DNA of 64,000 nt from Branchiostoma floridae (lineage: Eukaryota; Chordata; Leptocardii; Amphioxiformes; Branchiostomatidae), in NCBI RefSeq assembly GCF_000003815.2, contig NC_049987.1, positions 21,400,187 through 21,464,186 of the forward strand, given 5' to 3'. Numbering within the stretch: the stretch's first letter is position 1; the number at the start of each line of letters is the position of its first letter. A program made the translations under genes and the position numbers. This document shows, piece after piece, positions 10,116-34,196 of the stretch. Under the pieces are notes generated by a model, which ran no database searches, was not told the origin of the DNA, and worked only from the letters and a program-made list of their open reading frames with translations.

Positions 10116-13100
10116 ATGGTGAACATGGGGTCTCTTTCATCTGCAAATATGGAAAAGGCAGCGCGAATCCATCATAGGGTAGGACTAGAACTAGAAAGGA
10201 GAAATATCAAAATGAACATGTACACAAGCCAACTACCGCAAGAGGAGGGTGGCAGAGCAGTCCATACAGCCACAGCAGGCTCTCTTGTTGACACTGACAT
10301 GACCCAGTTTTTGATGCAGGCTGGCATCATCAACGAATGCCTCACTGCACTGCAAACTATTGGTAAGTCCAATAACTATATCTGTAGAAAAAAATGAAAT
10401 ACTGTAAAATTTAATGCAGTTTCACCATGAACTCAAAATCACCATGAAAGTTTCTGTTCTGTCTTCTATACCCGCCTATTCTCCTTCTCTTGTCTAAGAG
10501 AATAGGCGGGTATAATACAGTATGTATATAATATATATACAGTATGTCATTCTCATTAATTATGCAAATAAGGTCCTTATTTACATTGATTGTATGAGTT
10601 GATCATCTTCTCTACCCAAATAACAGAAGCTGACAGTCTTATCTTGTGTTACAAACTCTCCACCCCAAGAGCTATATACTAGTATATCTACCACTCAAAT
10701 ATCACATTAGCATGTCCAGAACACAAGATGTCAGACCAGAAATTCCAGTGCAGTACCGTAACAAGCCATTCTCATTAATTATACAAATAAGGTCCTTATT
10801 TACATTGATTGTATGAGTTGATCATCTTCTCTACCCAAATAACAGAAGCTGACAGTCTTATCTTGTGTTACAAACTCTCCACCCCAAGAGCTATATATAT
10901 CTACCACTCAAATATCACATTAGCATGTCCAGAACACAAGATGTCAAACCAGAAATTCCAGTGCAGTACCGTAACAAGCCACTAGCTACCCCAAAATCTA
11001 ATCATTTCCAGATCTTGTCAAGACCATGCCCGTAGCCAGGATTTTGGTTGAGGGGGTTCTTTTTAGTACTTGTGGGACCATCGAGCGCCGCAGGCGCGAG
11101 ACTCACGCCGAAGGCGTGAGCTGCCTAGGGGGGTCCGGGGGCATGCTCCCCCGGAAAATTTTAAAATATTGACCCTCTGAAACACCGTTTCCTGCATTTT
11201 GACGGGCAAAATTTGCTGGCTAAGTTTAATGGGATTTCTATCAAAATACACAAGGCTTTTGGCATAAGGCAGTTATTTTCACCATGTCTGACACCAAAGG
11301 CGCGAGGCATCGCAATGGACTGAATGGAGGTCCGGGGAAATTTTGAAATCTGGACCCTCTGAAAAGCCATTTCCTGCACTTTCTTGGGCAAATTTTGCTG
11401 ATAGACTCACTAAGATTGAATGAAATGTCTATAAGTAAAAATTGAAAATCAGTCATGCCTTTGAAGAAAATTCTTGGACATGAAAAAGTGGACCTTCATG
11501 CATGAAAAAGCGGACCTTTTCAGCGTGTGGGGGGGTTCTTCCGAACCCCCCCTGGCTACGGGCATGAAGACCTAACCACATACCAAATATCAAAACAAAG
11601 ATTTAGGATTTATGAAGGGGACACCACCCTAACACTTTCCTAGCAAGTAGCATCCTGATTGAAGTCTCTGTCGATAAAGGATTTCTATCACTATAATCAG
11701 CAATATATAATGCTGCCAGAAACTAATCTCTACCCTGACATTTGTATTGGCTCAATTTTGACTGAATTTCTGCAGGTGATGGGAACTGCCTGCCCCATGC
11801 CGTCTCCCTGTACATGTGGGGGGTTCAAGACAAGAAGTTGTCTTTGAGGAGGTACTTGGACTGCACCATGCAGGAGGATGGGGGTGCACTGAGGGAGCGT
11901 TGGGCCCATCAGAGGAGAGCCAGAGATGCAGTGGTGCCAGGGGTTCCCATTGGTGGAGTCGACTATGCCCCAGGGGTATGTTTAAAGTTCTGTAGACAAG
12001 CATGCTGTTCTCTTATGTTGTTGTCTCTCAAAGGATTAAAATTTTGACAGAACTGCTATTCAGTCTTTTTATCATAGAACAATATGTTTCAAAGGTTGTG
12101 CTAATGTTATGATTTAAAAAAAAAAAGGAATACTGTCCCATCCAGTCAAATCTGTAGCTTGCTTAATACATTTCGGCATTGTTTCAGGCCCTGAAGTCAT
12201 TTTGTTAAAAGTAGGAGTCTGCATCCACGTTGTGACATCCATATGACACAAATTTAGATAGATATCGGAGCAATGTAAATTTTTTTATGTTTATTTTTAC
12301 ACACACACTTAGTACACAACACATCACTAGTTATCTTTAAAGCACTTACAGCCAACCTTACCTTGCAGCAGTGGAATGGAGAATGGACCACCATGGTTCA
12401 GATGGCCTCTGCAGCTCCAAACGAAAGTGAACCCAACCAGACCAGGTACAGGCCGCTTGAAGAGTTCCACATCTTCGTCCTTGCCAACATCTTGCGCCGT
12501 CCCATCGTGGTCTTTGCAGACACCTCAGTCCGAGATGATGAAGGCAACTCTTGGGCACCGATCCCATTTGGGGGCATCTACCTTCCTCTTCTCCATACTC
12601 CAGCAGAATGTGTCCGCTCCCCGATTCTTCTGGGCTACAACAACCAGCACTTCACTCCTCTGCTGACCACCCAGACACCCCCACAGAATGGTGCATCTCC
12701 ATCTACCCAGCATCCACCACAGACCATCTCCTTGATGAGGCAGAATGGGGAGAGGCTGCCAGTTCAATACGTTCTCCCTAAAGAGGAGGGTAGAGATTTG
12801 CTGGCTGAGTATTTCAACATCATTCCAGCTGATGACAGTAGCGACAACACCCTGCTTGCTGCACTTGACATCACTCCTATTCCAGATCATCTGAACCTCT
12901 TTAAGGACTTAGTTGAGCATGAAACTCCCCAGCAAAGGAATGCCTCTCCTGACCTGTCTTCATTTCAGAAGCCAGTCAGTGTTGTACGTCCTCTGGCAAA
13001 AGCTACATCTAAAAGGCCTGTTGACAACACATCTGAAAGCATGCCTGTACCATGTACGGAGGATCTGGATGGACCACAAGCCAGTCACAGTCCACTGGAA

Positions 13101-15165
13101 GAGAGCTTCCTGAGGATGAAGCTTCGTCAAGGGGTGCAAACTGCCACAGTGGTGAACTCGGAACAGTTGAGATTGGCACCAACTGACTATGCAGCAGCAA
13201 CTGTACCACCATTGCCTTTGCAAGAGAATGTTGCTATCTTACCAAACGAAGAAAACTTTGGACAATCACAACATACCATAGCAAGACCTTCTGGCAGCTC
13301 ATCGGTCCAACCAAGGGCATCTGCACCACCATTGTCATCACAAGGGAACATGGCCAATCCTTTACATGGAGCAGACACTGGAAGATTACAGGAACATGTA
13401 GCAAGTGAGGAAAGTCAGCACTGTGCTGGCATGACTATGCAAGACATTCACAGTATCCCAAATGATAGAAATGAGAACTCTCAAAATGACGGATCTGTGA
13501 GTGCAGCTTCAAGGCCAAGTTATGCTGCAGCAGTGAAAAGTAATCCTGGACCTCTAATCCGGCCTTCCACACCAAAACCAAAACTTTTCTCTACTCCACC
13601 CAGAAAACCAACTTGTAAGAATCCAGAGTGCAAAGGCTCCCCCTGTCCCCAGAATGGAGGGTACTGTGCTAAGTGCCACAGGAAGAACTCAGCAGAGAAG
13701 AGGAGAGAGAGGAGAGAGAGTTTGACATCTCGGCAGGGCAGCACCTCTAGGGCAGGCACAACTATACATATTGGTAGGGCAGTTAACCAGAAGCACAAGA
13801 GAAAAGCAGCACAGCCGACAAAACCAAACCCAAGGAGGCCTCAGACCACTTCTACATCATCCTTGGTGCAACAGCGTTCTGCGGCACAAATGCCAAACCA
13901 AAGTTACAGTCCTGAAACCCTGCCAAGTAAAGTCGCCAGGGCTTCTATGCAGTCAACTCCAGAGGAACCATCCAGGCTGACAGAAACCCATGGCAGAAAC
14001 GTGTCTTCCCAACTACAAGTGCCTGATTCTGTTCAAGACTCGAATCCAGAAGGAATATGCAGAACACCGGGTTGTACTCAACTAGCACTACCGAGTGCAG
14101 ATGGTTTTTGTGTGAACTGTTGGAGCAGAGAGCAGGATGCAGAAACAGTCAGGGTCCAACAGAGGCAAGCAGCCAACAGTAGTGATGGGGGCAGCTCTAA
14201 TGCATCAAAGAACATTTCCAAGCAAACTGAAACAAAGGCTGCTTCTGCTGCAAGAGGAAATGGAAAATCTTCAAAGCAGAGATGCAAAGCTCCAAGATGT
14301 AAAGGGTTTGTTGATGACAGGATAAATGAGGCTCTTTGTCCCACGTGCAACTCACATCTCGACAGGAAGAACAGAAGTTCAGTGCAGAGCAATTCTGCCA
14401 ATGGGGGTGAGTTGTACAGATTTTGTAGTTCAAAAGTTCATATCTCTCTGATCAATCTCAGTAGAAATGAGAAACTTTTAAGCAGAAAATGAAATACTCC
14501 ACTGCCCACAATCTCCACATACATGTACAAGCAGTTAACGGTAACACAACAGGACTTGTCAGACTTTCATCAGGACTTTGCTTGTATTAAGAATTATGTA
14601 AATTTTATGTTTCTCAGGTGTGAGAGACTCCAATACCCCCAGCCCCTCCATGGGAACCTGGTCTCTTGGTCCGCCAGCTGGTCAGTCTGCAGACAGATTC
14701 TACACACAGCAGCCAGATGGGAGGAGATGTTTAACAAAGGGCTGCAAGAGGAATGGCACAAGAGACAACGGCTACTACTGCAGTGTGCATGCACCAAGTG
14801 GGAACCCTCAACAGGGACAGCAACAGTTTGGCCCACAGAGTTCCACAAACAACACATCTCATCAGTCCAACTCGTATGGCCAACCGCCATCCTCTATCTC
14901 TTCATCTGGAACTATGTCACTAAATTTCCATGGTGACATTCACAATCTGCATGTCCACCACCACCACTACCCCTCCCCAGATGGTTCCCAGCCCAGTGGA
15001 AGGAGTGGGTTCGATACACAGTCTCAGTCTCCATTTTTCAGTGCCCCAGGAGAACAACAGTCGAGTAATCTGAGGGCTCGAGGATCACACTCAGCATCGA
15101 GACCAGCCGGTTCTAGCGGGCAGAGTGCACCATCAGGAGCAGCGGCACCACATGGGCCACAGTAG
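10116..15165 (+). CDS. TNFAIP3-like: A20/TNFAIP3-like protein, copy 1 (OTU domain plus four A20 zinc fingers)
   Basis: Four coding exons are read: 10116-10362, 11776-11975, 12369-14406 and 14618-15165. All junctions are GT-AG and the total of 3033 nt is in frame (1010 residues; human A20 has 790). The OTU domain covers about residues 10-255. It has the Cys box GDGNCLPHA (Cys87) followed by YMWGVQD, and LEEFHIFVLANILRRPIVV. The catalytic His is His243 in NNQHFTPLL. A20-type fingers lie at about 565-585, 713-733, 788-809 and 866-886; the last has His in place of the fourth Cys. The linkers are Ser/Pro/Gln-rich. A20 proteins edit ubiquitin chains in the cytoplasm and restrain NF-kappaB signalling; that role is assigned by family. 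Odd points: the 19 residues before the Cys box, including the LNW motif seen in copy 2 and human A20, are missing, and the position of human Asp70 appears to be Asn73. The start is supported by the context AACAAAATGGT, shared with copy 2. The family call is firm; the missing N-terminal piece could be an overlooked exon. Confidence 0.88.
10467..10520. repeat. Short perfect hairpin in intron 1 of A20-like gene 1
   Basis: TATACCCGCCTATTCTC and its reverse complement GAGAATAGGCGGGTATA are separated by about 14 bases. It stands next to the tandem repeat at 10549-10979 and is probably a tiny foldback MITE. Confidence 0.55.
10549..10979. repeat. Tandem duplication of about 215 bp in intron 1 of A20-like gene 1
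   Basis: 10549-10766 and 10767-10979 are nearly identical from CATTCTCATTAATTAT to CAGTACCGTAACAAGC, differing by a few substitutions and one small indel. The high identity means a recent event. The unit contains the TTATGCAAATAAGG dispersed-repeat motif. Confidence 0.9.
11025..11566. mobile_element. MITE-like element with 5-bp target duplication, 542 bp
   Basis: The termini are perfect 16-bp inverted repeats (CATGCCCGTAGCCAGG and its complement). They are flanked by identical AAGAC at 11020-11024 and 11567-11571. Internally the ends read AGGGGGTTCTT and GGGGGTTCTT. There are CGCCGCAGGCGCGAG and CCGAAGGCGTGAG mini-hairpins and repeated short segments (GACCCTCTGAAA..CC..TTTCCTGCA twice). There is no transposase. 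The superfamily is not assigned. Confidence 0.85.
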
Positions 15166-15169
15166 GGTC

Positions 15170-15450
15170 ACCAGTCTGCCCCAAGTATGAACATTATACT
15201 CAGCCTGGTAGTCCTAATGTTAAGATTGGGTTTGAGACTGTACAAATTCTTCTTTAACTATTTTGTGAACCCTCGTGGTCGCCTCAAGAGGAGATGGGTA
15301 GACAATGTCAAGGAAGTTATTCGAAAACTGAACTTGCAAAAAGCCAACCCCCTTGTCAGAGGCAGTTGGAGAGCAGCAATCAGACCTAAATGGCATCCCG
15401 CAACTTTCAACACTTCCAAGACAGGGAACAACGGATGCTACACTGGATAG
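15170..15450 (+). pseudogene. LINE-type retrotransposon C-terminal remnant
   Basis: After the stop of A20-like gene 1, an open frame contains GRLKRRWVDNVKEVIRKLN followed by about ten residues and SWRAAIR. This resembles the tail of many non-LTR retrotransposon ORFs (RPRKRW-D-V, then RWR). The rest of the reverse transcriptase is absent, so it is a dead fragment within or next to the 3' untranslated region. The family assignment is from motif memory, without a search. Confidence 0.5.
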
Positions 15451-16074
15451 TGAGTGAGTCTGTGAATATTGTAATACAGAAATGTTTGCGGTGGTTTTAT
15501 GTTTGAAGTTTTCCTGGTAACCACAAACTCAAAACTGCAACTAAGATTTTTATCTGTCTTCTCCATGCCTTTTCCCCCTTGTCTACGTGCTAATGTTACA
15601 TGTATGTGCTATACATTGTAACATTACAATTTACAGCATCGTGACAACATGTTTTGGGGGCACCTGTTGCGGTGAAGACACACGTATAACTACAAAGAAC
15701 AACTTTGAAGAATTGAACCCAACTTTATCTTTGAACATTTAACACATTTATGAAGAAGTGCTATGTATCCAGAGGGAATATTATGTGATGATTAGTTGAC
15801 AGGTGATCATACCAGCACTGCCAAAAGTGACTGTTCTGCAAAGTTACTACATACTAGGTGGTTTCCACTGGCTGTTTGTTGAGGCTCTGGGATTTGAAAA
15901 GTTTAAAAAGTGAAGAGAATATGGTATATGTATGCACTTAAATCAAGCACAAAAGCATGCACACTTGTATGCTTGCACTATTTGCTAAATTATGATACAT
16001 AATGAATGTCATGCTAATCAGCTGATCGTTCAGAAATATTCTGTGAAATTGCAGTGGCCAGTGAGCATTACAAT

Positions 16075-16413
16075 CAGGGCTTTAGCCAGCTCGAATTTTT
16101 TTCCGTCAGCCAATTACAATCGTCGCGAAAACCTCAAAAATTATTTAGAAAGACGGAAATGAGACCTGGAAAAACGGGTTTTAATGAGATTATCGTATGC
16201 GAAAGGGCGCCGACACATATTGTCAACAATCATAACAATAGCAAAACAAACAGTGTGTGGCTTTTACGGTCGTGGACGGCGTCCCCAAGCCGCCTGTAGC
16301 TTCCACCAAGGATTTTTGTCCGTCAAGGTTGACGGATTGGTTTTAAAATTTTTCCGTCAGACGCAGCAAATTTCCGTCAATTGACGGAAAAACAGACGCT
16401 GGCTGGAGCCCTG
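16075..16413. mobile_element. hAT-type MITE, 339 bp, with perfect 8-bp target duplication
   Basis: The element starts CAGGGCTTTAGCCAGC and ends GCTGGCTGGAGCCCTG, so the two termini are near-identical inverted repeats. It is bounded by identical ATTACAAT at 16067-16074 and 16414-16421. CAGGG termini and an 8-bp duplication are the hAT signature. It has no transposase. Internally, TTCCGTCA/TGACGGAA motifs repeat in both orientations near the ends. Confidence 0.9.
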
Positions 16414-16645
16414 ATTACAATAATGATAAAACAAAAAAATGGAAACAAAAAAAAGTGAAAAGAAAAATACAACATTGTCAAGGATTGGAGACAATTGGTT
16501 GACAACTGTTGACAAAAAAACGTAAAGAAAAAAACATGAAAAAAAGGTGTTGATAAAAAAACCATAAAAGAAAAAAATGAAAAAAATAGAACATGTTAAT
16601 AATTATTACTTGATTTTAGAATATTTTGCATAGTTTTACATGTAG

Positions 16646-16850
16646 ATGTGTGGCCTCGTGTGGCATAATGATGTGTGACGAGTTTTGCTTGAGTCAAGAA
16701 GTTCTTGGTTCAAACAACATGGCCTATGTTGTACCCCTTGGGAAAGGAACATGAATTTCCTCTCTTCCCTCAGGTGAAATTGAGTGTCTTGTTTCAACTA
16801 GGGATAGCCCTCAGATAAGGTGTTCAATAGATGTCTCGTATTTGAAGAGA
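16646..16850 (+). mobile_element. tRNA-derived SINE-like repeat
   Basis: The head is tRNA-like, with an A-box-like GGCATAATGATG and a B-box-like TTGGTTCAAAC about 45 bases apart. It is followed by CCCTTGGGAAAGG and CTCAGGTGAAATTGAGT. The tail motif recurs in reverse orientation at 34843-34975. The match to common marine-invertebrate SINE tails is from recognition only. Confidence 0.5.
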
Positions 16851-16987
16851 GCTATACCTTTAGCACTTTAAAAGAACTTACCAAACTTGTCATTATTTCC
16901 TGGTGTGAGTTGTTCAAAACTTAGTCCTATGGCTGTGCCAATTATACTGTAAGTTGTTGATATATATATATATCTTCAATACATCTG

Positions 16988-17069
16988 CAGGGCTTGAAAT
17001 ACCACCTGTATATGCAGGTTGGTGCAGGTAATATTGGATCTGTGCCTTGATCGAGCCCTGATCTGAAAA
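16988..17069. mobile_element. Tiny CAGGG-ended element (about 82 bp)
   Basis: It begins CAGGGCTTGAAATACC and ends GATCGAGCCCTG, giving short inverted CAGGGCT-type ends like hAT MITEs. ATCTG flanks both sides, but not as a full 8-bp duplication. Confidence 0.4.
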
Positions 17070-18057
17070 GTTAATTTACCTCTGATAGAAGCCAGTATTT
17101 TTCCTAGATCACTTGCCAAAAGTAGAAACCTATTTTTGATGATGTGAAGGGAAAATTTTGTGAATTAGAAGATGTGTACATAGTATATATTCAAGATAGA
17201 TTATGTCAAGAGTTAATGGCTGTGTTCCGCACAAAATTACATCACCTGCCAATGGTGGAGGTTTGTACTCTTAGAGTACTTTGGAGGAAAGTAAGCTGAG
17301 GTTGTGCTGTTGTACTGATTACATCTTATTATATAATTGTAATTCTTCAAGGCTGTACTGCACAGTATAGCCATTTGTACTTCAATTTCATAGAAGTCAC
17401 TAACTCTACAAACAAAATAACCTTTCTTATACACACACATACATGTTTGTGCTATCCACCTAATTTAGAAAATCACTTTGTCTGAAGATCACGAAAGCAG
17501 CAAAATTCACCTGTGCCTTTCCAACACTAATCAATATACCACTGATTCTATTAGCCATTATAGTTAATCGCGTTTATAGCAGTTTCCCAACTATCTGTCG
17601 GCCCCCAAGCAGTGTCCAGCTGAGTCTGAGCTTCACAGGCTAAGATTCTTTTGATCTTTCATACACTGCCATTTTGTATGTGTAAGAAAACTTGTGATTT
17701 TGCACTTGCAATTTGTGATTTTCACAGATGTTAACATTTTAACTATTTTCATGATAATGTTTCATGCCTGCTGCAAAGAAGCTGCTTCTGATGATAGGTT
17801 ATTTTTCTACGTTATCTTTCCATCAGCTTTCTTGATTCCACAATGAAATAATTCAATTGTATCATTATATTCTTGGAATGGCTTACGACATGATTTCTGG
17901 AAAACAATTCTGATTTGACTGCAAGGTTGTTCAAAGTGAATATTCTGTATAATATTGGGACATAGTGCTTCTATTGATGCGGATTACCAGATTTACCATA
18001 TAGGCCACAGTCACACCAATTAAACTTTTGTAAAGTTGATCTTTGGACCTGCTAATA

Positions 18058-18123
18058 CACACACATACATACACATGCACGCGCGCACCCCCACACACAT
18101 ACATACACATACACACACATATT
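18058..18123. repeat. (CA)n-rich microsatellite
   Basis: Interrupted CA/CATA repeat. Confidence 0.85.
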
Positions 18124-18785
18124 ACATACACACAAACACTGCAAAGAACAAAGTTCAATAACTGCATGCACACAAACACACATCACTTTTTTAAATTTCT
18201 GGCCTACTCTATGTTTGACTTCTGCATCAAACTTATGTATAATCTTATGTTGGTTTCTGGCAACTAACATAAGTATAATGTCCATCAATTGTTGTCAAAG
18301 CACCTTGATTAAGTTCAGATTAACTCTGCCATTTCCATGTTTGGAAAGGCCTGTATGTGCATCATATTCTGTGTCTTTATTACTCAATCTTTTTTTTTAC
18401 TTTGAAGTTCCTTTTTGTCCTACTGTCCAAACTAATAAATCTGTAAAGAACTTGGTGTGGCCATTAGCAGCTGCTGCTGTAGATATAATGTGTACTACAT
18501 TGAGGTATATTCAATGTTCAAATGGTTCTGTATTAGATTTTTACTGAAACGGTGAAAGTACACAATGGTGCAGGGTTTTGACATTGAAGACTATTGTATA
18601 TTGTATGGGTGTTTTATGTGAAGAAATTTATCCAGCAATTATAAATAATGATGCAGAGCAGATGGTATAATTCCCTTTGGAAATTTATTGTTATGATGTT
18701 AAATCATTCCAACTTGAAAAGGTATTTTTGGATGATGATTGATATATTTTGTTATACAATAATAAGTATGTAATGTGTCATTAAG

Positions 18786-18885
18786 NNNNNNNNNNNNNNN
18801 NNNNNNNNNNNNNNNNNNNNNNNNNNNNNNNNNNNNNNNNNNNNNNNNNNNNNNNNNNNNNNNNNNNNNNNNNNNNNNNNNNNNN
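18786..18885. other. Assembly gap (100 N)
   Basis: Run of exactly 100 N in non-coding DNA. Confidence 0.95.
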
Positions 18886-19054
18886 CATCTTTGAAAAGAT
18901 ACATGTTTTAGAAGTGGATTCACTCAAGGAGGTTATCTCTATATAACCTCCTTGATTCACTAGCCACAGTACTACTGTTGAATCACCTCATTGTGACATT
19001 AATACAATGTACTTCACAATATCTAGATGTACAATGTCATGCAGTTGTTACTTG

Positions 19055-19164
19055 CCTGGGTACCATGCTATTTCTATCCGGGCCCCTTGTACTCGCAGTG
19101 CAAAAAAAAAAAAGATTTCATAGGCCAGTGAGTGCAAATTGCAAGGAGTAGGATGGTACCCAGG
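19055..19164. mobile_element. Small foldback element with CCTGGGTACCAT ends
   Basis: CCTGGGTACCATGCTA at the left and GGATGGTACCCAGG at the right form inverted termini of about 12 bp around about 85 bp. No clear target duplication was seen. Confidence 0.5.
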
Positions 19165-20676
19165 ATAGTTCTAACAACATTGGTCATATATCTTCAATAG
19201 TTGGATTCATACCCTATGACAGTTGTCTATCATTCAACATATTCAACTGACTCAGAGGAAAATTGCTAAGCTCAACTGTATAGCAATGATTCAACATCAG
19301 TGAATGCTTACAGTATCCATACATTGTATACAGGCTGGTCAATCAATGCATATTTTGATCTTTCTGTTGAAGTAAAATCTTATTTCATTAGATATACTTA
19401 AAAATCATATTTCGTTAGATATACTCAACCTTAACTAGATCTGTTATAAGGAGTATTATTAAGTTAAGCAGCTTGTTTGAAATATCTTAATAAAAATGCC
19501 AAAAAAGAGAATGCAATCACTTACCAATTATATGCCATCCAGTCTTGGGCTGGTAACAAACATCCTCTTGCAAACCTAAATGACATTGAGATGAGATCAA
19601 ACAAAAAAGGTTAAGTCATGAGCCAGCCATTTGTTAACAATTCCATTACAGTTGCAAAGGTACAGCATTGTACGAAGGGCCATATTAATGGGTTTTACGA
19701 AAGGGCCATATTACTTAATCCAAGGACATCACACAGTACATAATATTCTTGCTTGACAGATCTGTTTGTACCAGTCCTCTGACTTGGATGTATTGCCCAT
19801 CTTAGAAAGAAAAAAAAGAGTTTTTTTTTGTGTTTTGGGGGTAGGCTAAGATCAATCAGGCCTAAAATCAGTCATTGTGAAGGTACACTATAATATAATT
19901 TATTGAAGTAAATAAAAAAACTCAGTTATTTTCTTGTATGCAATCATTGCAACAAATTATCATACCGTTTTTCATTCGCAAGTTACAGGATGGTTGCAGG
20001 GTAAATGTATAGATGAAGTGTTGCCAATCTAGACCATCTAAAAGGAAAATGATGGTATTTTCCAACTTTGAATCCAACCTTCTGTCTGCAGGCAAGGAGA
20101 AGGTTGAATTTCACAAAATTATGACTTATGTTTAATGTGGTGATTAGGAAAGTCTACAATTGGCAATTCTTCACTTGGATTACTTAAGGTATGAACAAAA
20201 CTGCAGAGATATTGCCTTTGCTGCAGCATGTTTCATTTGGGCTTCAATAAATGGTGTCAACCTTCTATTTGTTCATTGTCGTTTATGTGTGTTCCACTAA
20301 TATAAGGTATCACTTAAATGCTACCATTTATGAAAAGAGAGGAAAAATATGTGACTGTACAGATGTAATATAAGACAATTATTACTATATGTGTGGCATA
20401 TATCATTTATTTATCAATCTTCATCTCCTAAACTTAAATCGTGCCAACCCAAAGAGGCATCTAGTAGGCTGCCATCAAGCCTCCACATCTACCTGCAAGC
20501 ACGTCTAGCTCTCGCCTGACAGACATTAATGGACTATAAACTGGGATATGTATTCATTAGATTTGGCAATGGAGACATAAATACACATAATTAGTTAACT
20601 TGGAAAACATTTCTCTTTGCAGTTGCTGTGACATGAGTGTTAGACAATGGAAGTTTCAGATTTACAATCATCAGTT

Positions 20677-21053
20677 CACAGCACCCCCTATTGCTGCACA
20701 GCTGAACTGCACATATCAGAACATTTTGTTTTCTAGGGGCACATTTATCGAGGTCTACTCAAGCTCCTTGGTCTACATAAAAAGGCCTAGTAGAAAAGTT
20801 GAACTTAACATCAGGAGATTCTTGGTGTGTCTAGGTGATAATAAAACAATTACCGTTTTATTTTTACCTAGACATTGCATTGTCTACGTAAATGCAATTA
20901 AATGTCAATCTGGAAAATGCTATTACTATATTTCTACCAGGCCTTTTTATGTAGAAAAAGGAGCTTGAGTAGACCTAGATAAATGTGTCACTAGAAAACA
21001 AATATTCTAAAGTGCAGTTCATCAGTACATCAATAGAGGGTGCTGTAAACCAG
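20677..21053. mobile_element. Foldback MITE with about 115-bp arms
   Basis: The left arm starts at CACAGCACCCCCTATTG. It carries TTTCTAGGGGCACATTTATC, GGTCTACTCAAGCTCC and TACATAAAAAGGCCT. The same words occur in reverse complement and reverse order up to AGAGGGTGCTGT at about 21053. The 122-codon open frame running through it is an accident of the palindrome. Confidence 0.8.
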
Positions 21054-21239
21054 GCCCAAACCTGCATACCTGGTCCAGTAATACCTGTAGACAGCTGATA
21101 TGTACAGGGATTACTCACACAAATTCTGTCTGCAAATTTTGTTTCTAATATGCAAAAGTTGCTTGAAATACAGCAAGAATATAAGATTTTATCTCATCAT
21201 TCTGCATTAGTACAAAATTTGAATGAGAAAGTCAAAAGC

Positions 21240-21278
21240 ATAATTTTATTTGTACAGTACAAATAAAATTATTCTTTT
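21240..21278. repeat. Short palindrome
   Basis: ATAATTTTATTTGTAC is followed almost at once by its complement GTACAAATAAAATTAT, giving a hairpin of about 16 bp per arm. Confidence 0.6.
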
Positions 21279-22397: not shown

Positions 22398-22676
22398 AGA
22401 CTAACCCTATGCTAATCCTAACCCTGCTAACCCTAACCATGTAACCTAACCCTAACCCTGACAGTTACCCTAACCCTAACCCTCTGCTAACCCTACCCCT
22501 CTGCTAACCCAAAGCCTAACCCTAAATAACCCTAACCCTGACAGTTACCCTAACCCTCTGCTAACCCTAACCCTATTTAACCCTAACCCTAACTGACCCT
22601 AATCCTAATCCTGACGGTTACCCTAACCCTGAGTTACCCTAACCCTAACCCTCTGCTAACCCTGACCCTCTGCTAA
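22398..22676. repeat. Degenerate interstitial telomere-like array
   Basis: About 280 bp of CCCTAA-type units (TTAGGG on the other strand). They are broken up by recurring spacers CTGACAGTTA and CTCTGCTAA. The array stops exactly where the second segmental-duplication copy begins (22677). The mixed higher-order units are typical of a satellite rather than a functional telomere. Confidence 0.85.
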
Positions 22677-24499
22677 CGATATTCAAGTTCTACATCCATG
22701 AAGACCGCCATAATTATAAATTTTGTATACATGAAACACGTTGTCACATGTTTTCTCCAGTTACATGCAAAAACGCTCCTTATCTGAGGTTACCATATGG
22801 CCGGGGCGCATGGTTCTAGTTTGATCGGTGGAGACAGCGACCCCGACCGCCCAGCTTTCAGGGCACCTTCGGTGATCGGCAAATACACAAGCCCGCCCCC
22901 ATTAGCTGTCGCTCCCTCGATGAAAGATGGCTACATTGATACAAACGTACATAGAAAATAAAAATTCCTCACCTCACCGGTTCACTGACTCGTCAGTTTG
23001 GCGGACAGCGGTAGTCGGTAGCGGGCCTGGTCGGCGGAGAGCTTCGGCAATCTTGCCGACCGTACGGGACCCCACCCGTCAGCGGCCCGGCACTACCGTA
23101 TGCCCGTCGGTTGTGGGTCCATCGCGACGGACAGCCAAAACTTACGGATAATCCAATCCACAGAGTTGTAACAAATCGTCATCTGTCTACACGGACAACA
23201 CCAGTTGCATTGGGCTTCTCTTGTTTATCACCCGATATTTTGAAACTGAAACGAAACTAACACATGGGCGCAGGGCCTCGCTTCAGCACAACGTGGGTTT
23301 CACGCTTGTGACCTGGAACCGCTTGCAGCTGACGGTCGGGGCGATGTTGATGTTTTTATACTGTGTCTGGGATGACGTTCCCCCGCTTCTTCTACGCTAT
23401 TGGCCGAGTCCGCTGTCAATAATGTTGACCGCGGGGCTGTAACCAATGAGGCAAAACTCCTTGTTGTAACGATGGTAGAAGTTGCTCCTCCCCTCTAAGA
23501 TGAATGTTGCTGGGATGCAAATATGCAAAATAGAAGTTTCGCGCCAAAATTCCGCTATGTCGATCATGATGGGCCAACTGGGGATTTTACTACAACCGGT
23601 TTGACAAAGATCTCGTTGAATTGAGATTCAAAAGATAGTACATGTATGGACAAGTCCGTAGCAATACACAGATATCTTATTTGGAATGCAACATACGTTT
23701 AAATACTGCCAGCAACGTTAATCGTTTTATATCCAGAATCCTCTATCAAAAATACCCCTGTCACCAGATCGGTCCTTTCACCCTACCCATGGGCCCCAAG
23801 GAGGAGGTGGACCCTGTGAGCTCATATGGGGTAGTCCAAAGTCCGTTCCTTTTCATCTTTCATCCTGAGTGACGGACGTTCAGTTCCGGTGGACTCTGCT
23901 GTGTGCAACTAGCCGGTTCTGATCTTACACAGTATGCCACAAGTGGAGCATACGAAGGAATTTGTTGTCCATATCGTATGGATTTTGTCTCTTTTAGTAC
24001 TTTGTGCATATATTAAATGACGTACAGGATGGACGACTCTAAATATATATCGTGCGCAGGTGGCCACTCCTTGCTATAAAGAATCTAGTTGGCTAATTCC
24101 GTTAATTTGCACTACCCATTTTGACATATGCAGCATACATTTATACTTAATATATATTGCAATCGGATATACTATAATCATTATATATTGGTAGTCCTTT
24201 GATAGAAATTATGCTCGGGAACAACACCTCTTATTGACTTTGGCAGTGCCCGCACTGAAGACGGGATAGTCCAACTTGGGAGGGTACCGCCCTCCATATA
24301 GCACACGTTTGCGTTTAAAAGTACTCTAAAAATAAATGATTGATTTATCACAGAGTATTACAAATCATAATAATCATAGAAGCTATGGTAATAGCTGGTA
24401 TAATGACAATGGCATGGGATATATTGATAAATGCGAACATAATACTGTGTACGAAATTAAAAGAACACCCCTTTCATTAGAATATTCCAAATGAGAAAT

Positions 24500-24509
24500 G
24501 GGATTCCCC
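24500..24509. promoter_or_regulatory. kappaB-like site upstream of A20-like gene 2
   Basis: GGGATTCCCC matches the Rel/NF-kappaB consensus GGGRNWYYCC. It lies about 200 bases upstream of the candidate leader exon (24704-24867). Copy 1 has a different kappaB match at 6468-6478 in the roughly corresponding region. This is motif evidence only. Confidence 0.4.
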
Positions 24510-24703
24510 CCCAGCCGGCCGGCACGTCACACAAAAGTCGTAATCAGTTCTCCTTTTCGCATGTGTTGCATTTCCGTGTCCCCGTGCATGCTAGAGTTTA
24601 GTATGGTACTAAAATCTTGTTAAATCTTGAAGATGGAAGTACTGTACTCAACCTCCTTGGACTGAGGGACAAAGCAACGTTAGCCCTGTCCTGGCCGGGT
24701 GAG

Positions 24704-24867
24704 CAACACCGAAGCTCCAGCTCCCGGAAGTGGGGCGGAAAAATAATCTGGATCGGATGCTCTAATACAACATCGCGTTACATGTCCGTAACGCCCCAGT
24801 TTCAACTAACGTGGATGTGCAACACAGTGGCAATCACTGACATTCTCTGGCGGGACCTAAAGACAAG
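24704..24867 (+). other. Candidate 5' non-coding exon of A20-like gene 2
   Basis: Counterpart of 7186-7359, with the same GACAAG/GTTAG donor-like end. Conservation in an otherwise diverged upstream region is the only evidence. Confidence 0.35.
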
Positions 24868-25690
24868 GTTAGATAGTATTTTTGTGCTACCTGAGCCTGT
24901 ATATGAAGTACTACGTAACTACGCCAGTCTTTTATTTGTCGGACGTAATGTTACACCTGCAACAGTGGGGTTCCACCACCAACTGTTCCAAAGCCTACTC
25001 GCCTCCAGGCTCCAGTGTGTTTCATTTGTGCTAGCCTGTCAACAAGAACTTCCCGCACTAGTCTATTGATAGGTTAAGCCTGTCAATAAGAATTTTTTTC
25101 ACCATTTTTTTAAACAATTGACAGACAGTCCCGGCCCTGTACATTTGTTGCTGGGATTTCGGAAAAACCGTAACTTTGTTGCTGTGCAAATGAGGCTTTG
25201 GAGGACTCATGGGCATGGTATCAAACATGACATGGGGTCGACCACCTACGCCCATATTTGGCTGCCTGTTTACTCACCCAGGCCATATATAAAACAGTTC
25301 ACTGATTTTAGGTTTTTGGTATGAAGTTAACACGATCATGATCTAACACATAACGCATGATTAATGAGGAAAGCTAATAAACCCAATGCGGTCCATGATA
25401 GGGCTATTCAATCATGTGACCTTTATGATTAAGAAGGAAAGGAACATTGTAAGAATTATAGATATAGATTATACAAATTCACAATAGTAATGGCGAATTC
25501 TACTGAGAATGTGTAGACTATTGGAGATGGTTAGGAAACGGTTAGGACATGGTTGACGCAAAATTTCATATCTATGGCATGTGTCATATTATGAAATTTT
25601 GCGTCCATAAATGTTAACTTAATGTCTCCATGCATGGATTATGTAGATGTAGAAGACATCTGAATAAAATTTAAAAATGCACTGGATATT

Positions 25691-26495
25691 CTATGGAGGT
25701 ATGACATCTCAGAACTCATTTGTTTATTTCCATGAAAAATGGAGATATAGTTTTGGGAGTGTCTGTGTTTCTGGATTTTTGTAGTCAGCATAAGTCAATA
25801 ACCTCTGGGTGGATTACGATATTTGATATGTGGGTAGATGTTGGGAAAACGAATGTCAAAATGAATTTTGGCCTCCTCGTATTCGACCTTGTTACTGCAT
25901 CATAACTTCTGTTTTTTTTGTCTTTTGACCTGGACGTGCTATGGTCTTGATTATTTGGTTGCAGATAGCTTGTGGTGTAAGGAAGAAGTGGTGTATGTTT
26001 GGGCCCCCTAACAGCTTGCTATGGAACTGCAGGGGCATTTCTGTCAATCTTCCAAGGGGAATAACAAACTTAAGGATTGATGGATTTCCATGATATCTAC
26101 TATGCAAGTAGTTTGGACAGAGATGTAAACGATGAATTGTGAATTAACAAATTGATACTTGATTTGAATATTTCATGAGGAAAAATCTATAATTGTAGTG
26201 TTTTTCATTATAGGACTCAAATACATGTAACATAGTTTGTGGCTGGTGTAACATAAACAGATAACAATTATGCAAATATGTGCTTAATTTGCATACATAA
26301 AAGTGCAATAATTCCTCTAAATGTTAAATGATTGTCAGACTATCAACACAGTGTGATGGGTGTATTACAGTTATTCAAAGGTGAACATAACCAACCATAG
26401 AATCTAGATTATGTATACAACTATACATAGAAGACATTTGCATAATCAGGATACTAGTATTTCATGGAGATATGTGGTCTCCGAACTCTTGTTGT
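25691..26495. repeat. Two fragments of the GGAGGTATGAGGTCTCCGAA dispersed repeat
   Basis: About 25691-25720 and 26461-26495 carry diverged copies of the terminal motif also seen near 2890 and 9321. The DNA between them is AT-rich with TTATGCAAAT words. Confidence 0.5.
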
Positions 26496-27004
26496 AAATT
26501 CATTGGGTTGAGGAGGTGGAAGACATACACACATTGATGAACTGTCCGAGGGTGGATGCCGTCGTTCATTCGGTCAACCGGCCTTTAATATGACATTGTA
26601 TATGTACAACAAAGGAAAGCAGGTCATTTATATCATTATCACTTAGACATTGTCATATATCTAGCCGTGACGACTCAGTTTCGGAGGGCGCATTACATTA
26701 TATAGTAGCCCACAGACGAGATCCAGTTTTAGTTCGTTCAACCTGTTTTCTTGCTGGCCAGGCCGAATTCTTGCTCTTCCTGCTTTCTGAACCCTTTAAC
26801 CTATAATTAGCCTGACTAAAATCATGCCCCTAGCGGCTGGCCCTACAATTACCACTGCCCGACAGTTTGGTAGCTCTTGTTCCTAGGAGTATAAGATCCT
26901 CTACTCACTAATGATTGACAAGATATAACCCTAAGAACACCTATACTCCGGATGCGGGTCCATATGGGACCTGGGCTATGGGGAAAATGGAGCCTACTAT
27001 TGGT

Positions 27005-27480
27005 NNNNNNNNNNNNNNNNNNNNNNNNNNNNNNNNNNNNNNNNNNNNNNNNNNNNNNNNNNNNNNNNNNNNNNNNNNNNNNNNNNNNNNNNNNNNNNNN
27101 NNNNNNNNNNNNNNNNNNNNNNNNNNNNNNNNNNNNNNNNNNNNNNNNNNNNNNNNNNNNNNNNNNNNNNNNNNNNNNNNNNNNNNNNNNNNNNNNNNNN
27201 NNNNNNNNNNNNNNNNNNNNNNNNNNNNNNNNNNNNNNNNNNNNNNNNNNNNNNNNNNNNNNNNNNNNNNNNNNNNNNNNNNNNNNNNNNNNNNNNNNNN
27301 NNNNNNNNNNNNNNNNNNNNNNNNNNNNNNNNNNNNNNNNNNNNNNNNNNNNNNNNNNNNNNNNNNNNNNNNNNNNNNNNNNNNNNNNNNNNNNNNNNNN
27401 NNNNNNNNNNNNNNNNNNNNNNNNNNNNNNNNNNNNNNNNNNNNNNNNNNNNNNNNNNNNNNNNNNNNNNNNNNNNNNNN
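27005..27480. other. Assembly gap (476 N)
   Basis: Run of N of estimated size. Long open frames across it are artefacts of the N. Confidence 0.95.
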
Positions 27481-27923
27481 TCAGAGAATAAAGTCATTGA
27501 CTGTTGTCCTAACAGTAGTAACACTTTTGATGTGCTAAACTAATTTTGAGAGTACTAGCTACAGTGGAGGACATAAGCCCTAAGTATATGTTTTGTTAAA
27601 TCAAGGTTTACAAAATTCTTTGGTCAACAAGTAACTTTTTCTTCATGTTGCAATATATCTCCAAGCAGATGTTTGGCTGCCCAGATTTTTGCTCATTTGT
27701 ATTTGAATTGATTAATGGACGAATGTCAAAGATGATGCAAACATTGGAAAATTAGTGTGACAGTCTGTGATGTAATTACTTAAAATTGAAGTTTGAGTTG
27801 GTTACTAATTACTTTGTTCTCTTTCCATTTTACAGCTAAATTTGGACAATTTGACAGAACAGTCTCCAGATAAAACAGCTTCCAATACCAAAGGTCAGAT
27901 TTGTAACATTTACTTGGTTAGAG

Positions 27924-27935
27924 ATGAAATTATAA
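27924..27935 (+). other. Three-codon upstream ORF before A20-like gene 2
   Basis: ATG AAA TTA TAA ends four bases before the main ATG at 27940, within the exon that opens at 27836 after TTTTACAG. A terminating uORF this close could affect initiation by leaky scanning or re-initiation. Confidence 0.4.
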
Positions 27936-27939
27936 CAAA

Positions 27940-30900
27940 ATGGTGCGAGCAACATCTTTGGCATCCTTTAACCTGCAAAAGTCAGACAGAATTCAGTCTC
28001 TTGTAAAAGATGACGTCGACAGAGAGTCAATTTACTTCGGAGGAATACACCGCTATACCCTGAGGCTCCCTGCAAATGTGGCATGTGCAGACATCTGGCA
28101 TGTGATGGCAGACCTGTTGGATGGGACAACACAACAACATCTGGAGAGGAGAGGAGTTCTCAACTGGCACCCTGCTTTAGGAAGACTGGTGGTGATGAAT
28201 ATGTCAGGTAAGTGTGGAGGAATCTGATTAGGTGACATAGTTTAGATATCACCCTAGCACACAAGTTGTAGCCCATCAGACCATCCCCATTCAGAAACAA
28301 TCTTGCAGACATAGGTTGTAACAGTTGAAACATCACCTCCAATGACAGGCATATGTGGTCTTGCATATAGGAAACTTTTCGCACACATAAAATCCATTTA
28401 GACATTAACCTTGTATTTAATGTGTATTTAATTTTTGTACATTGTATGTTACATTTCACTTCAAGTAATGAGTAAACCTATTGGGTACTATACTTCAGAA
28501 CAATGTAGTACATGTACTAGGAAGTGAGATTGTTCATGTATTCTTATATTAAACATTTCTCATGTTTCTTTCCTTGCTCCTAAGGGATTAGGAATGCCAC
28601 ACTACCTCAACCTGTGGTATGGAAATGTTCTAATAAAACATACTGTACATACCAAAAAATATTCTTGAAATAGCTAGCAGTATACATGTAGCTTGCAAAC
28701 TGCCAACTGTAGGAATATTCTTACTAAATAGAGCTTAAGGTATTTCACCTTGCTGAATTGGCATTTTGATATCCCATTGTTTTCTTATTAGGCCACAGCA
28801 AGTAAATTTTATGGATGACATCCTCTGCAGACTGCAAAAATCGTGCGATAGGTCGGAAAAAAACGATGGGTGAAAAAAACAACAACAAGATAGCTACATT
28901 TTCAAAAATAGGCACCATAAAGTTGTGATGGCTGTTGTAAAAAGAATTAAAGAGACAAAACAAGGTATCAGAGCCAACAAGGCATTCATTCCTGTATTTA
29001 AGATATATACTGGTGTGGTAAAAGTGACACTAGTGTGGTAGAATGGCATCATCAACAAAGTTAATTGGCAACCACACTCATAGCTTCCATATTGGTGTCA
29101 CCTTTACAACTATCCAATAAATTTAATTTCTAAAACTACAGTCGTGGGTATCTCGCAAGTGTCACTTCTACAAGTACAATTTTTAGGATACAACACAATA
29201 TATTTGCTCATTTTGGTACTTTATCGTCATGTTGACCATCCCTGCAGAAGAAAAAAATTCTTGTTTTTTTTCTGAAATCAGGCAAAAAATTAATGCACGC
29301 GCTGATGTCATCCATAAAATTTACTTGCTGTGGCCTTAATGAATTAAGAAAGAATGGAGCCCTAATGAATATTGATACACATGCAGATGGGCATGAAAGA
29401 ATTCTAAATATAGGGGCCATATGGATGATGTCATCAGGTTTTCTTGCCCCTAATATTATTTTTTTCTATGAGAAAATACAGCACTTTGGTACATACTACT
29501 TCAATGGAGCTATGTTTTTCATGTACATAATGATGAAAGCTACAAACTCACATTTGTGCAAATTGATATCTTGTAATGATCTGTAGTACATTATGATTAG
29601 AAAAAATTTGTTCTCATCTTTAAAAAAAATCATTTTCTACTTACTACAGATCATTACAACTTACAAGATATCAATTTGTGCAAATGTGAGTTTGTAGCTT
29701 TCATCATTATGCACATGAAAAACATAGGTACATAGCACTGCAATGAAGCTAAGTGCTGTATGTTCTCATAGAAAAAAATAATATTAGGGGCAATAAAATC
29801 TGATGGTGTCATCCATATAAAAATAGAATTATTTCATGCCCATCTATCAATATTCGTTACAGCTCCATTCTTTCTTAATTCATAAATGAGAAAACAATGG
29901 AAAGTCAAAATGCAAATTTAGCAATGTGAAATATCTTAATTTTCAAGGTCGTTTTGGTGAAAAGTTCTGTCAACATGTAGCACAAACTATTGATTTAGTT
30001 AAAGTTAAGTTCAATTTATTTTTCAAGCTGTGTTCCTGTCACAAACCTGTTTCATTGTCCAGTTAAATACTATCAGTTTTTTGTACATTTCTATGTGTAC
30101 ATCTCTATGTTTAGTGGTCAACTTTGTTCAATGTTCAGTTTTGTAGTTCTACATGTAGATTGCCAACTTTTGGAGCTTTTTTGACATTGTATGTCATAAA
30201 TAAGCCCCATCTTGTTGATCTTTAATCATCTTGAGACCTACACTACAAGTTTACAAAGTAGTTACTGTTAAGCAGTTTGGTCTCAGTCAGGTGTCTGTAA
30301 GAGTATCTATTGACATACATTAAAGTCACACTCTGTAAAATGTATTGTTTCCTCCTCATCACTTTTCCTCAGGAAATGGGAACTGTCTGCTACATGCCAT
30401 CTCTACCTATATGTGGGGGGTCCAGGACAGTAGCCAGACACTGCAAAATCTACTTTGCCGGGCCCTGACTGAGCCGACAACAAGCAGAACTCTGAGGAAG
30501 CGTTTCATGATGGGAATGGAAAATGCAAGATGCCAGTCATCACAAGAGGTCAGTTAAGCCAACTGTTCCTATTCTATATGATTTCTAGACCAAATCTCCC
30601 TTGACATCTATGTGCAATCTATGTATATATAGATTTATATATATATATATATATAAATATATAGATAGATAGATAGATAGATATACATAATTTTTATATA
30701 TAGATAGATAGATACATAAAGAAATATTGATAGATAGATATCAGACACAATGTACATAGAAAGCTGGCATGCCATGACAGATCATGTTTGCACGTTTACT
30801 CAGTAATAATATTTGCCTGCATGAGACCTAACAAGTAATACCAAATAATTTAAAAGCTTGCTCTTATCTATTTAATGTCCTAATCACTACAGTTTTTTCC

Positions 30901-33900
30901 ATTTTTTCCCTAGGACCCGCAAAGAAAATGGGATGCTGTTGTTTCCATGGCCTCCTCTGCACCCAGCCAACAAGTAGAGAATGATCTCTTGCTCAGAGCC
31001 TTTGAGATCTACATCTTCACCATGGCCCAGATCCTCCGGCGACCCATTGTTGTTCTAGCTGAGAACGTGCCCCTCAGTGATGGAGGTCCCTCATTGAGCG
31101 GCATCTACCTGCCACTACAATGGCCAGCAGAAGAGTGTGTGAAGAACCCCATCATGCTTGCCTATCACAGTGGCCAGTTCTTCCCACTGCTCTCTACCCT
31201 AGCTCCACAGCAGGCCACATCTCCTGTCCCCATTGATGCAGTTCCACTGATAAGGCAGAATGGAGAAAGTCTTCCAGTGCATCTACTGCTACCGGAGGAA
31301 GCTGGCCATGTCCAGGAGTACCTAAACCAGCGCATTGATACCGTCCAGGTCCAAGATCACCATGACAATCGCCTAGTAGGAGCAAGGCTGGGCATCCTAA
31401 CACCTCCTGATGAGTTGAACCTCTTTTTGGACATCTTCCAGCAGACTGGGGGAAGGTCAAATCCCGCAGAAGCCAGAGAATCATCCCCTGGGCCTGCTGC
31501 TTTCGAGAACAGGAATGGAGGGGCTGACCAGAGCATATCTGTCTCCTGCACCCAAGGAGCAGATGGTCTGACATCTCGTGGCGCAGACCTCGATCAGCAG
31601 ATGCTCAGAATGTCCATTCAGAAGGAAGTTGTGAGCCATGGTAACAGTCACTCTCATGTCTCACAGGTTCCATTGGCGGAACGGGCAATGACATCCACAG
31701 CAAACCCATGTACCACTGATGGCAATCAACACAGCCCTGGCATTGTGCAAGTTCACAACATGCCTCCTGCAAGTCAGCAAAGCATCCACACCAGTCACAG
31801 CACCAACCAAGATGAAGGTAACAACCACAAGACAACCTCAAGCAAGCTGGGAGAATGGCAACAAAACAACGTCTTACCAAGGGATGTGTCAGCCACAGCA
31901 GAAGGCAACCCAGATGGAAATCATGCCTCAAGAGCCAATAGTAGGTCCTCAAGAATGGCCTGTGACAACACAGTACAGTGGGATGCAACTGGAGCCAAAC
32001 CAAAACAGTATTCATCCAGATCTAGGGATGGATCAAAGAAGTTTGGAAATCCTCCTGCTCGTGACAAGTCCATCTGCAAAATGGAAGGGTGTGGTGGAAT
32101 CGCAGAGCCCCGTCTTGGTGGCATCTGCAGGGACTGCAACACCAAGAAGACCCAGAAAGAAAGGGAAAAGAGAAACAAAAAGAGACTTTCCATTGAAAAT
32201 CCCTCAGCAGAAGGGCCCGCATCCCAGTACAGAGAGGCCAGAAAAACCTCAAGATCAGCTGGTCAAGAAAGAGAACAGCAGACACAGTCAGGCCAGAGGT
32301 CGGTTTCATCAGCTCCAACAAGCAAGAACTCATCATTAGCTAAAGCGATCAAAGAACGAAAGTCAATGCAGCCAGTGAACACACCAACTTCAACAGCAAA
32401 CACAAGTTGCAGATCATCAGCAACTGACGATGGCACATTGATGAGGCCAGAAGTGCTTGGGCTGCAGACTACACCTAAGCCAGAAGTGCCTCAGTCCAAT
32501 GATGCTGGAAGTCGCCCTGAGACTACATTCCTACCTAACAGTGGACCTCCCAGTTCTATCATCTATGCAAGTTCAAGTGGCCAATCATCAGCGACAAGCA
32601 CCCATGGCACTGACCCAAGTGTCAATCAAATGATACTGAATGGAAGAAATCACCATGCTGTAAATCAGTCGACCAATGATAAATCTACGTCCAGCACGCA
32701 GCACAATGCAGATGGACCCCTTGGACCTCCTTCGCACTATTCTAGGACCACTGCACAACATTCTGCTGACGGTGCTGTCCCAGAGAATCGTAACTCCATC
32801 CCAGCAGATAAAAAGTGTTCAGCTCCAAACTGTGACAGACAGGTGAACAAGGACATGAATGGCTCTCTCTGTGGAGTGTGCCACCAGGTCCTTGGGCAAT
32901 TCAACCAGATGTCTCTTCCCAATAGTGGCACACTCATCTTGGGACCAGGAAACACTATTTCTGCAACTACAAGACCAATATCAATTGGTAAATTTTATAT
33001 TTCATAACAAACTTGAAAATGTTGTTTCTTCTTTCCTTTTCACATAATACTCTGTGATGTAAATGTTTGTATCTTAACCTTTTGATGTCCCAGAATGAAT
33101 GAAGATTCAACATATTTCAGGTGCAGCTGCAACAATGACTACAAACCAGCACCCTGCCATGGCTTCAGTTGTCAACCCACCCATGAGGAACCAACAAGCT
33201 GGTATGTCTGTGGATGATATTTGTGCTCATTGGCATATGCAGCAGCTATGATATTTGTGTATATGAAATTCAGTTAATTGCAAATTCTTATTTATCCATG
33301 AATTTCATTAATACATGTAATTAACATTTATCTTTGGGAAGTATACTACTTACCAGACTTTCTAATTCAGATACATATTTAGACCTACTCAAAGTCTGAC
33401 TTAGTCCTAAAAAAATAGTCTTATTTTAACAGTGCACACAGCATCTGAACTGCCATCCGCACATCAATATCCACGATCCTTGCTGCAGCAACGGGGCACA
33501 GGCCACCACCAGACTGTACCATCACCAGGCCAGTCCACAGAGCAGTTAGCTACCCAGCCTTTAGTCACTGGGGGTTGCAGATATACAGATGAGATGAGTG
33601 CTTTGGCTTCCAACAGCTTTGATGCATCTCGTAACATCTCACTGCATACAGATCCTGAGCCCTGTAGTCAGCCTGCATCAATGCCCCAATCCATTTCTTG
33701 TACTAATTATAATTACTATAACTTTGAACGTGGATCTGTTCAAACTTTCATCAATAATCCATCACCCGCAAGAACACGAGCACGAGGGTCACCCTCCCCG
33801 CAAAATGGCCAAACTCCACTTTTGAGGAATAGCCCCTCTCCACCTTTACCTGCAAGACAGGGTCCCTCCACACATACAATGTATGGCCAATCCCCAAGGA

Positions 33901-34196
33901 ATGGTCCTCCCCCAACCCCAAGCTATGGGTTTCCTCAGGGCCAAGGGTACCGGCAAGCCCCTAGAACCCAGTGGAACAATCTTTCTGCATGCTCAAATGA
34001 AACAAAACCATTTACTCAACATCCCATGCAAGACCCGGCCCTGCATTCAAATTCTATTGGCCCACGAAATACCCCTTCTCCTTCCGTGCCTATTTTCAGA
34101 TGTAACATGCGCGACTGCAACCAAAAAGGTGACCCCGCATATAGTGGGTTGTGCCCACAATGCTTTGACTTTATCCAAAGGAATAGGAAATGCTAA
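27940..34196 (+). CDS. TNFAIP3-like: A20/TNFAIP3-like protein, copy 2 (OTU-like domain with altered triad, three A20 zinc fingers)
   Basis: Five coding exons are read: 27940-28207, 30373-30548, 30914-32987, 33121-33201 and 33433-34196. All are GT-AG and the total of 3363 nt is in frame (1120 residues). The N-terminal part is closer to vertebrate A20 than copy 1, with HRYTL, Asp61 at the place of human Asp70, and LNW. The Cys box is GNGNCLLHA (Cys94; GDGNC in human and copy 1) followed by YMWGVQD. The later part has LRRPIVVLAE, GGIYLPLQWPAEEC and PIMLAYHSGQFFPLL. The catalytic His position is Gln236 (codon CAG, 31175-31177). A20-type fingers lie at about 536-556, 783-804 and 1090-1110, separated by long Ser/Gln/Asn-rich linkers. 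By family it should bind ubiquitin and NF-kappaB pathway partners. The His-to-Gln change predicts little or no OTU protease activity. The start shares the AACAAAATGGT context with copy 1. Intron 1 holds a foldback transposon. Confidence 0.88.
28735..29942. mobile_element. Composite foldback transposon in intron 1 of A20-like gene 2, about 1.2 kb
   Basis: The outer ends are inverted: AAGGTATTTCACCTTGCTGAATT at the left, and the complement of AGCAATGTGAAATATCTT at the right. Inside, 29335-29590 and about 29640-29885 form a large palindrome (arms about 250 bp, centre near 29615). The left-end sequence GGCCACAGCAAGTAAATTTT (28791) recurs inverted at 29309-29333. The structure fits two inverted copies of one element, or one element with duplicated ends. 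No transposase was seen. Confidence 0.75.
30636..30714. repeat. (TA)n and (GATA)n microsatellites
   Basis: TA run at 30636-30655, GATA units at 30661-30684 and again near 30700-30714, in intron 2 of A20-like gene 2. Confidence 0.9.

Follow-up and report, generated by a model that had tools for sequence, protein, structure and literature searches.

A probable pseudo-deubiquitinase gene within a cluster of A20-like OTU loci in amphioxus

OTU proteins without activity have already been described, namely Drosophila CG3251 and Otu (PMC4654579) and human FAM105A (PMC3705208). FAM105A is an OTULIN-like protein whose OTU domain lacks catalytic triad residues. CG3251 and Otu are OTUD4 relatives encoded by duplicated OTU genes that have lost activity, and in them Cys is replaced by Ser while Asp and His are kept. 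The triad of CG3251 includes D37, located three residues ahead of S40 (PMC4654579), which by spacing corresponds to Asp100 in human A20. In human A20 itself, a protein that controls inflammation, the third catalytic residue could be either Asp70 or Thr97 (PMC10284599). Human A20 reacts slowly with ubiquitin probes (PMC3705208). The weight of A20 deubiquitinase activity is disputed: in C103A mice, LPS responses are affected little or not at all (PMC7644770). The same paper cites an amphioxus A20 (Yuan et al. 2014, doi 10.1073/pnas.1321187111) that is regulated by LPS and modulates NF-κB by ubiquitin editing.

We analyzed a window of Branchiostoma floridae DNA (the whole stretch of 64,000 nucleotides, C9:21400187-21464186), which contains two A20-like OTU genes, termed copy 1 and copy 2. 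Both resemble human A20/TNFAIP3 (structures 2vfj, 3dkb, 5lrx and others) in having an N-terminal OTU domain followed by zinc fingers of the A20 pattern. The Cys box and the His region of human A20 are conserved in copy 1, which lacks human residues 87-91, whereas copy 2 differs from the human enzyme by H256Q, D100N and T97M. Copy 2 is reminiscent of FAM105A in lacking catalytic triad residues of its OTU domain, but it belongs to the A20 rather than the OTULIN subfamily and keeps its Cys; compared with CG3251 and Otu the situation is reversed, as Cys is kept and His is lost.

The A20-like OTU cluster and the two gene models

We searched C9:21300000-21613999 (314 kb, including 2,751 N) with tblastn, and the genome (513,431,437 bases in 431 contigs) with the Pfam OTU profile and with copy 1. 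The two genes were originally described as tandem A20-like duplicates. Both are indeed A20-like OTU genes on the forward strand, but the pair represents two of six A20-like OTU loci clustered within ∼235 kb:

21.349 Mb (C9:21348-21349 kb), + strand, locus G1
21.368 Mb (C9:21368-21370 kb), - strand, locus G2
21.400 Mb (C9:21397-21400 kb, reaching the left window edge), - strand, locus G3
21.410 Mb, + strand, copy 1
21.428 Mb, + strand, copy 2
21.583 Mb, + strand, locus G6

Elsewhere in the genome, the matches listed for the search with copy 1 include two places, an OTUD7-like one on C2 and a weak one on C4. Asp70 and Cys103 are present in all five loci that have a Cys box, and Thr97, Asp100 and His256 in four of these five, copy 2 being the exception. 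G1 and G2 contain eight and nine A20-type fingers by pattern, respectively, and Pfam zf-A20 scores above its cut-off on a piece of G1. Comparison of the two loci gives dN 0.034 and dS 0.249. Tblastn extensions had suggested Ser or Cys at the Asp70 position of G1 and G2, but these letters are intronic and precede an AG acceptor; an upstream exon in each locus supplies IDRFMQ, and Asp70 is kept in both (the exact donor motif was located for G1 and not for G2, whose exon end was read from the frame translation). In G1 and G2, the Asp70 helix and the LNW motif are separated by an additional intron, which is absent in copy 1, copy 2 and G6 and could possibly mark two sub-lineages.

G3 is the sister of copy 1 (91.6% amino acid identity over 190 OTU codons; dN 0.044, dS 0.241) and forms an inverted near-copy arranged head to head with it; at the DNA level the two are about 87% identical across 1.57 kb. 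We found no Cys exon for G3 in the 314 kb examined by tblastn (E up to 1), nor in the genome search with the copy 1 protein, in which at least 12 candidates were scored. A 100-N assembly gap (window positions 187-286) is located 235 bases upstream of the G3 OTU exon.

The coding exons of copy 1 (10116-15165, + strand; four modeled coding exons, 1010 amino acids) and copy 2 (27940-34196, + strand; five modeled coding exons, 1120 amino acids) are as follows:

10116-10362, +, copy 1 exon 1, N-terminal part of the OTU domain; Asp59 (GAC, 10290-10292) at human Asp70 and Thr81 (10356-10358) at Thr97
10340/10341, +, site of the five-residue deletion (human 87-91) in copy 1 exon 1
10363-11775, +, copy 1 intron 1, GT-AG, phase 1
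11776-11975, +, copy 1 exon 2, Cys box GDGNC; Cys87 (TGC, 11787-11789) at human Cys103
12369-14406, +, copy 1 exon 3; His243 (CAC, 12648-12650, NNQHF) at human His256
13614-13676, 14058-14120 and 14283-14348, +, three A20-pattern fingers in copy 1 exon 3, by pattern
14618-15165, +, copy 1 exon 4, C-terminal region up to the stop, with a finger-like motif ending in His, CLTKGCKRNGTRDNGYYCSVH
27940-28207, +, copy 2 exon 1; Asp61 at human Asp70 and Met88 (ATG, 28201-28203) at Thr97
30373-30548, +, copy 2 exon 2, Cys box GNGNC; Asn91 (AAT, 30375-30377) at Asp100 and Cys94 (TGT, 30384-30386) at Cys103
30914-32987, +, copy 2 exon 3, remaining OTU domain
31175-31177, +, codon CAG in copy 2 exon 3, Gln236 (HSGQFFPLL) at human His256
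32075-32137 and 32816-32881, +, two A20-pattern fingers in copy 2 exon 3, by pattern
33121-33201, +, copy 2 exon 4, linker
33433-34196, +, copy 2 exon 5, linker and C-terminal A20-pattern finger (34101-34163)

All seven introns of the two models are GT-AG (four of four in copy 2), and the copy 2 model contains neither a frameshift nor a stop. The third exons remain free of stops over 679 codons in copy 1 and 691 codons in copy 2, runs with a chance of 5.7e-15 and 1.6e-14, respectively, from base composition alone. The OTU domains match Pfam OTU with 56.5 bits (copy 1) and 53.6 bits (copy 2) at a cut-off of 23.3, and the copy 2 domain is therefore still recognizable. For both proteins human A20 is the top match among solved structures (E = 2.1e-45 with copy 1, E = 4e-42 with copy 2, each the best of 12 matched sequences), and the copy 2 alignment with human A20 spans residues 10-324.

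Pattern searches identify three CxxxxC..CxxC finger patterns plus one ending in His in copy 1, and three fingers of the A20 pattern in copy 2. Pfam zf-A20 has no match in copy 1, in copy 2 or in the copy 2 tail alone. TNFAIP3 zinc fingers rank first among solved structures for the C-terminal finger of copy 2, at a non-significant E = 0.12; the finger matched is presumably finger 7. Human A20 has seven fingers (PMC7644770), compared with three full patterns in each amphioxus copy.

The window contains several other features. An open frame on the - strand (40584-41871) encodes two A20-pattern fingers, CEKKDCYQVGGFRGTSFCREC (41566-41628) and CRNPYCSNFADPDRGGFCFPC (40584-40646); no OTU domain was detected nearby and the frame 41047-41871 has no Pfam match, so that this is perhaps a finger-only A20 relative within the cluster. 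Very long open frames of coiled-coil type (1607 amino acids and more) occupy 46153-52733 on the + strand, where the strand is purine-rich (AT skew up to 0.45) and Pfam matches are sub-threshold only. A 249-residue open frame at 35252-36001 on the - strand (YIGETARSLETRFMEHRR) has no Pfam match and resembles what we take to be the GIY-YIG endonuclease tail of a retroelement. Inspection by eye showed a long, imperfect inverted repeat in intron 1 of copy 2 (about 29480-29830), in which AGATATCAATTTGTGCAAATGTGAGTTTGTAGC is paired with its reverse complement; this is perhaps a small transposon. Telomere-like TAACCC units form a tandem array at 22473-22647 (period 73, 2.4 copies), and an open frame at 55493-56254 on the + strand carries a methyltransferase-like glycine-rich motif, VACLGGGPGSDVLGV, with a weak Pfam Methyltransf_34 match (13.2 bits) under the cut-off.

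Active-site residues of copy 2

Alignment with human A20 agrees with the sequence-only reading that copy 2 keeps its Cys (GNGNC; Cys94 at Cys103) and Asp61 (at Asp70), and that Gln occupies the place of the catalytic His: the in-frame CAG codon specifies Gln236, which falls in the His256 column. This column holds His in human A20, G1, G2, G6 and copy 1, and His is likewise found in G3 (NNQHF) and in human OTUD7B. Copy 2 carries two further active-site changes: Asp100 in the Cys box is replaced by Asn, and Thr97 by Met. The same reading had taken Cys103, His256 and Asp70 as the triad of human A20; with Asp70 and Thr97 both listed as candidates (PMC10284599), the assignment of Asp70 as the third residue is not settled. 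Copy 1 has both candidates, whereas copy 2 has Asp70 only and has lost Thr97.

We compared six OTU domains (human A20, G1, G2, G6, copy 1 and copy 2), leaving out each in turn. Copy 2 is altered at 23 of the 71 columns that are invariant among the other five domains, compared with 9/57 for human A20, 2/50 for G1, 4/52 for G2, 6/54 for G6 and 9/57 for copy 1, the low counts of G1 and G2 being flattered by their 76% identity to each other. Three of five catalytic columns are altered in copy 2 versus 20 of 66 other invariant columns. This is no clear excess at the active site, and the losses therefore belong to a general acceleration; since the changes do not clearly concentrate in the catalytic columns, general decay is possible. 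Copy 2 also shows small deletions, an indel in the conserved LEE motif at or adjoining Glu192 and a gap spanning 225-227, and it retains GIYLPL, LRRPI and YMWGVQD. In the tree, the copy 2 branch has a length of 1.21 and that of human A20 1.18; copy 2 groups with G6 and copy 1, at weak support (52/89). All dN/dS pairs with copy 2 are saturated (dS 1.7 or more, or undefined).

The OTU domain of copy 2 is closest to A20, but its catalytic triad is incomplete: the OTU domain is recognizable without an essential catalytic residue. The proposal that copy 2 is a putative pseudo-deubiquitinase is backed by the H256Q, D100N and T97M exchanges and by the number of altered invariant columns.

Possible functions of copy 2 and alternative explanations

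We think it probable, with moderate confidence in what the sequence suggests, that copy 2 is an intact pseudo-deubiquitinase gene of the A20 family and that copy 1 encodes a regular A20-like enzyme that is probably active. In copy 2, the OTU domain has kept the family signature and the nucleophilic Cys, with the general-base His exchanged for Gln, the Cys-loop Asp for Asn and Thr97 for Met. With Gln, Asn and Met at these sites, no useful cleavage of ubiquitin chains is expected, and copy 2 would be inactive in the sense of not cutting at a useful rate. It may instead act without catalysis via its zinc fingers and perhaps the surface of its OTU domain, on ubiquitin chains or on A20 partners in NF-κB signaling. 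Action as a scaffold or decoy may be envisaged, and no sequence feature that we found proves ubiquitin binding by copy 2. Since A20 C103A mice are barely affected, if at all (PMC7644770), a non-cutting A20 is plausible and can be useful. A wider version, in which cutting and non-cutting A20 jobs are divided among the paralogues, is speculative and in our view doubtful: G1, G2, G6 and copy 1 would cut, and copy 2, dedicated to a non-cutting role, would read ubiquitin and compete with the active copies or scaffold for them in innate immune signaling. Equally doubtful is the corollary that a non-cutting copy 2 is the natural counterpart of the mouse A20 mutants engineered to be catalytically dead.

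Among the alternatives, a copy 2 OTU domain that has lost ubiquitin binding as well as cutting, and a protein that acts only via its fingers or other partners, is possible but somewhat unlikely. The changes in copy 2 extend beyond the active site, and the LEE indel lies at or next to Glu192, which is among the surface residues of the ubiquitin-binding region (PMC10284599); CG3251 shows neither cleavage nor detectable binding of ubiquitin chains (PMC4654579). The GIYLPL, LRRPI and YMWGVQD motifs retained in copy 2 argue against such a loss.

It is unlikely that copy 2 is a decaying gene in which catalysis has disappeared because the whole protein is unneeded. The altered invariant columns are spread over the domain and accompanied by small deletions, and the copy 2 branch is long (yet that of human A20 is nearly as long). 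However, the five exons are free of stops and frameshifts, their introns are GT-AG, and all three zinc-finger patterns are retained.

We consider it very unlikely that copy 2 is in fact a working enzyme, the CAG codon being an assembly error or a rare allele, or another residue replacing His. The codon is known from a single assembly, and a His is present three residues ahead of the Gln (YHSGQF, human D253), but a His at 253 is not, to our judgment, known to be placed for catalysis. A single base error does not explain copy 2, as the Asp100 and Thr97 columns, encoded in other exons, are altered as well.

Asp70 region of copy 1 and implications

Copy 1 had been read as keeping the Cys box (GDGNC) and the His (NNQHF), and both align as anticipated, with Cys87 at Cys103 and His243 at His256. 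It was further thought to lack 19 residues ahead of the Cys box and to carry Asn in place of Asp70, which our alignments contradict. When aligned to a profile of five relatives from which copy 1 was excluded, GSLVDTDMTQFLMQAGIINEC fits the Asp70-Cys86 stretch without gaps and places Asp59 on Asp70; LTALQTIG aligns to LVALKTNG in the same profile, and a gap of five residues remains (human 87-91). SLVDTDMTQFLMQAGIINEC is gapless on Asp70-Cys86, and LTALQTIG falls on LVALKTNG, also with a second profile that excludes copy 2 too, and with MAFFT. The Asn in question is that of the LNW motif (human Asn84). The earlier match of IINECLTALQ to the Asp70 helix was an alignment error, scoring -22 to -37 per relative, whereas the corrected placement scores +16 to +38. 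Summed over the five relatives, the 21-residue block of copy 1 scores 122 (best of 20,000 shuffles, 68; highest score at any of the 62 other offsets within this exon, -10). Together with the profile alignments, this score identifies Asp59 as the Asp70 equivalent, and five residues rather than 19 are deleted. The six-domain alignment shows Asp70, Thr97, Asp100, Cys103 and His256 retained in copy 1; its OTU domain is closest to A20. Its departures are W85E and the five-residue deletion before the Cys-loop strand, which to judge from sequence could affect activity.

Exon 1 of copy 1 ends in phase 1 within a Gly codon common to copy 2, G1, G2 and G6. As the paralogues share this splice site, no missing exon need be sought. 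The exon junction in human A20 is presumably at the same phase-1 Gly codon. The coordinates previously given for intron 10363-11775 are right, and so are those for the CAG codon of copy 2 (31175-31177). A hidden exon there had been put forward as what would overturn the claimed defect, but a profile scan of the genomic intron in three frames (17 columns) revealed none resembling the missing segment; the best score is 17, with a shuffled mean of 29.5, and 77 of 100 shuffles reach at least this value (the positive control, the copy 2 segment, scores 166 and is among the four sequences that make up the profile).

A complementary split, with copy 1 lacking Asp70 and 19 residues and copy 2 lacking His, is hence improbable in the extreme: His is indeed lost in copy 2, and W85E with the five-residue loss might reduce copy 1 activity, but Asp, Cys and His are all present in copy 1. 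MAFFT and both profile alignments put its Asp59 at Asp70, Thr97 and Asp100 are in place, and the intron scan showed no hidden exon. With the copy 1 defect removed, no complementary split is left to explain.

Among the matches listed in our search of open-licence literature there was neither a pseudo-deubiquitinase of the A20 subfamily nor an account of this cluster. Copy 2 would add an A20-type case to the known OTU pseudoenzymes. Should copy 2 prove to be expressed, conserved and inactive, a naturally non-cutting A20 next to active ones would show that A20 has a selectable function that does not involve cutting.
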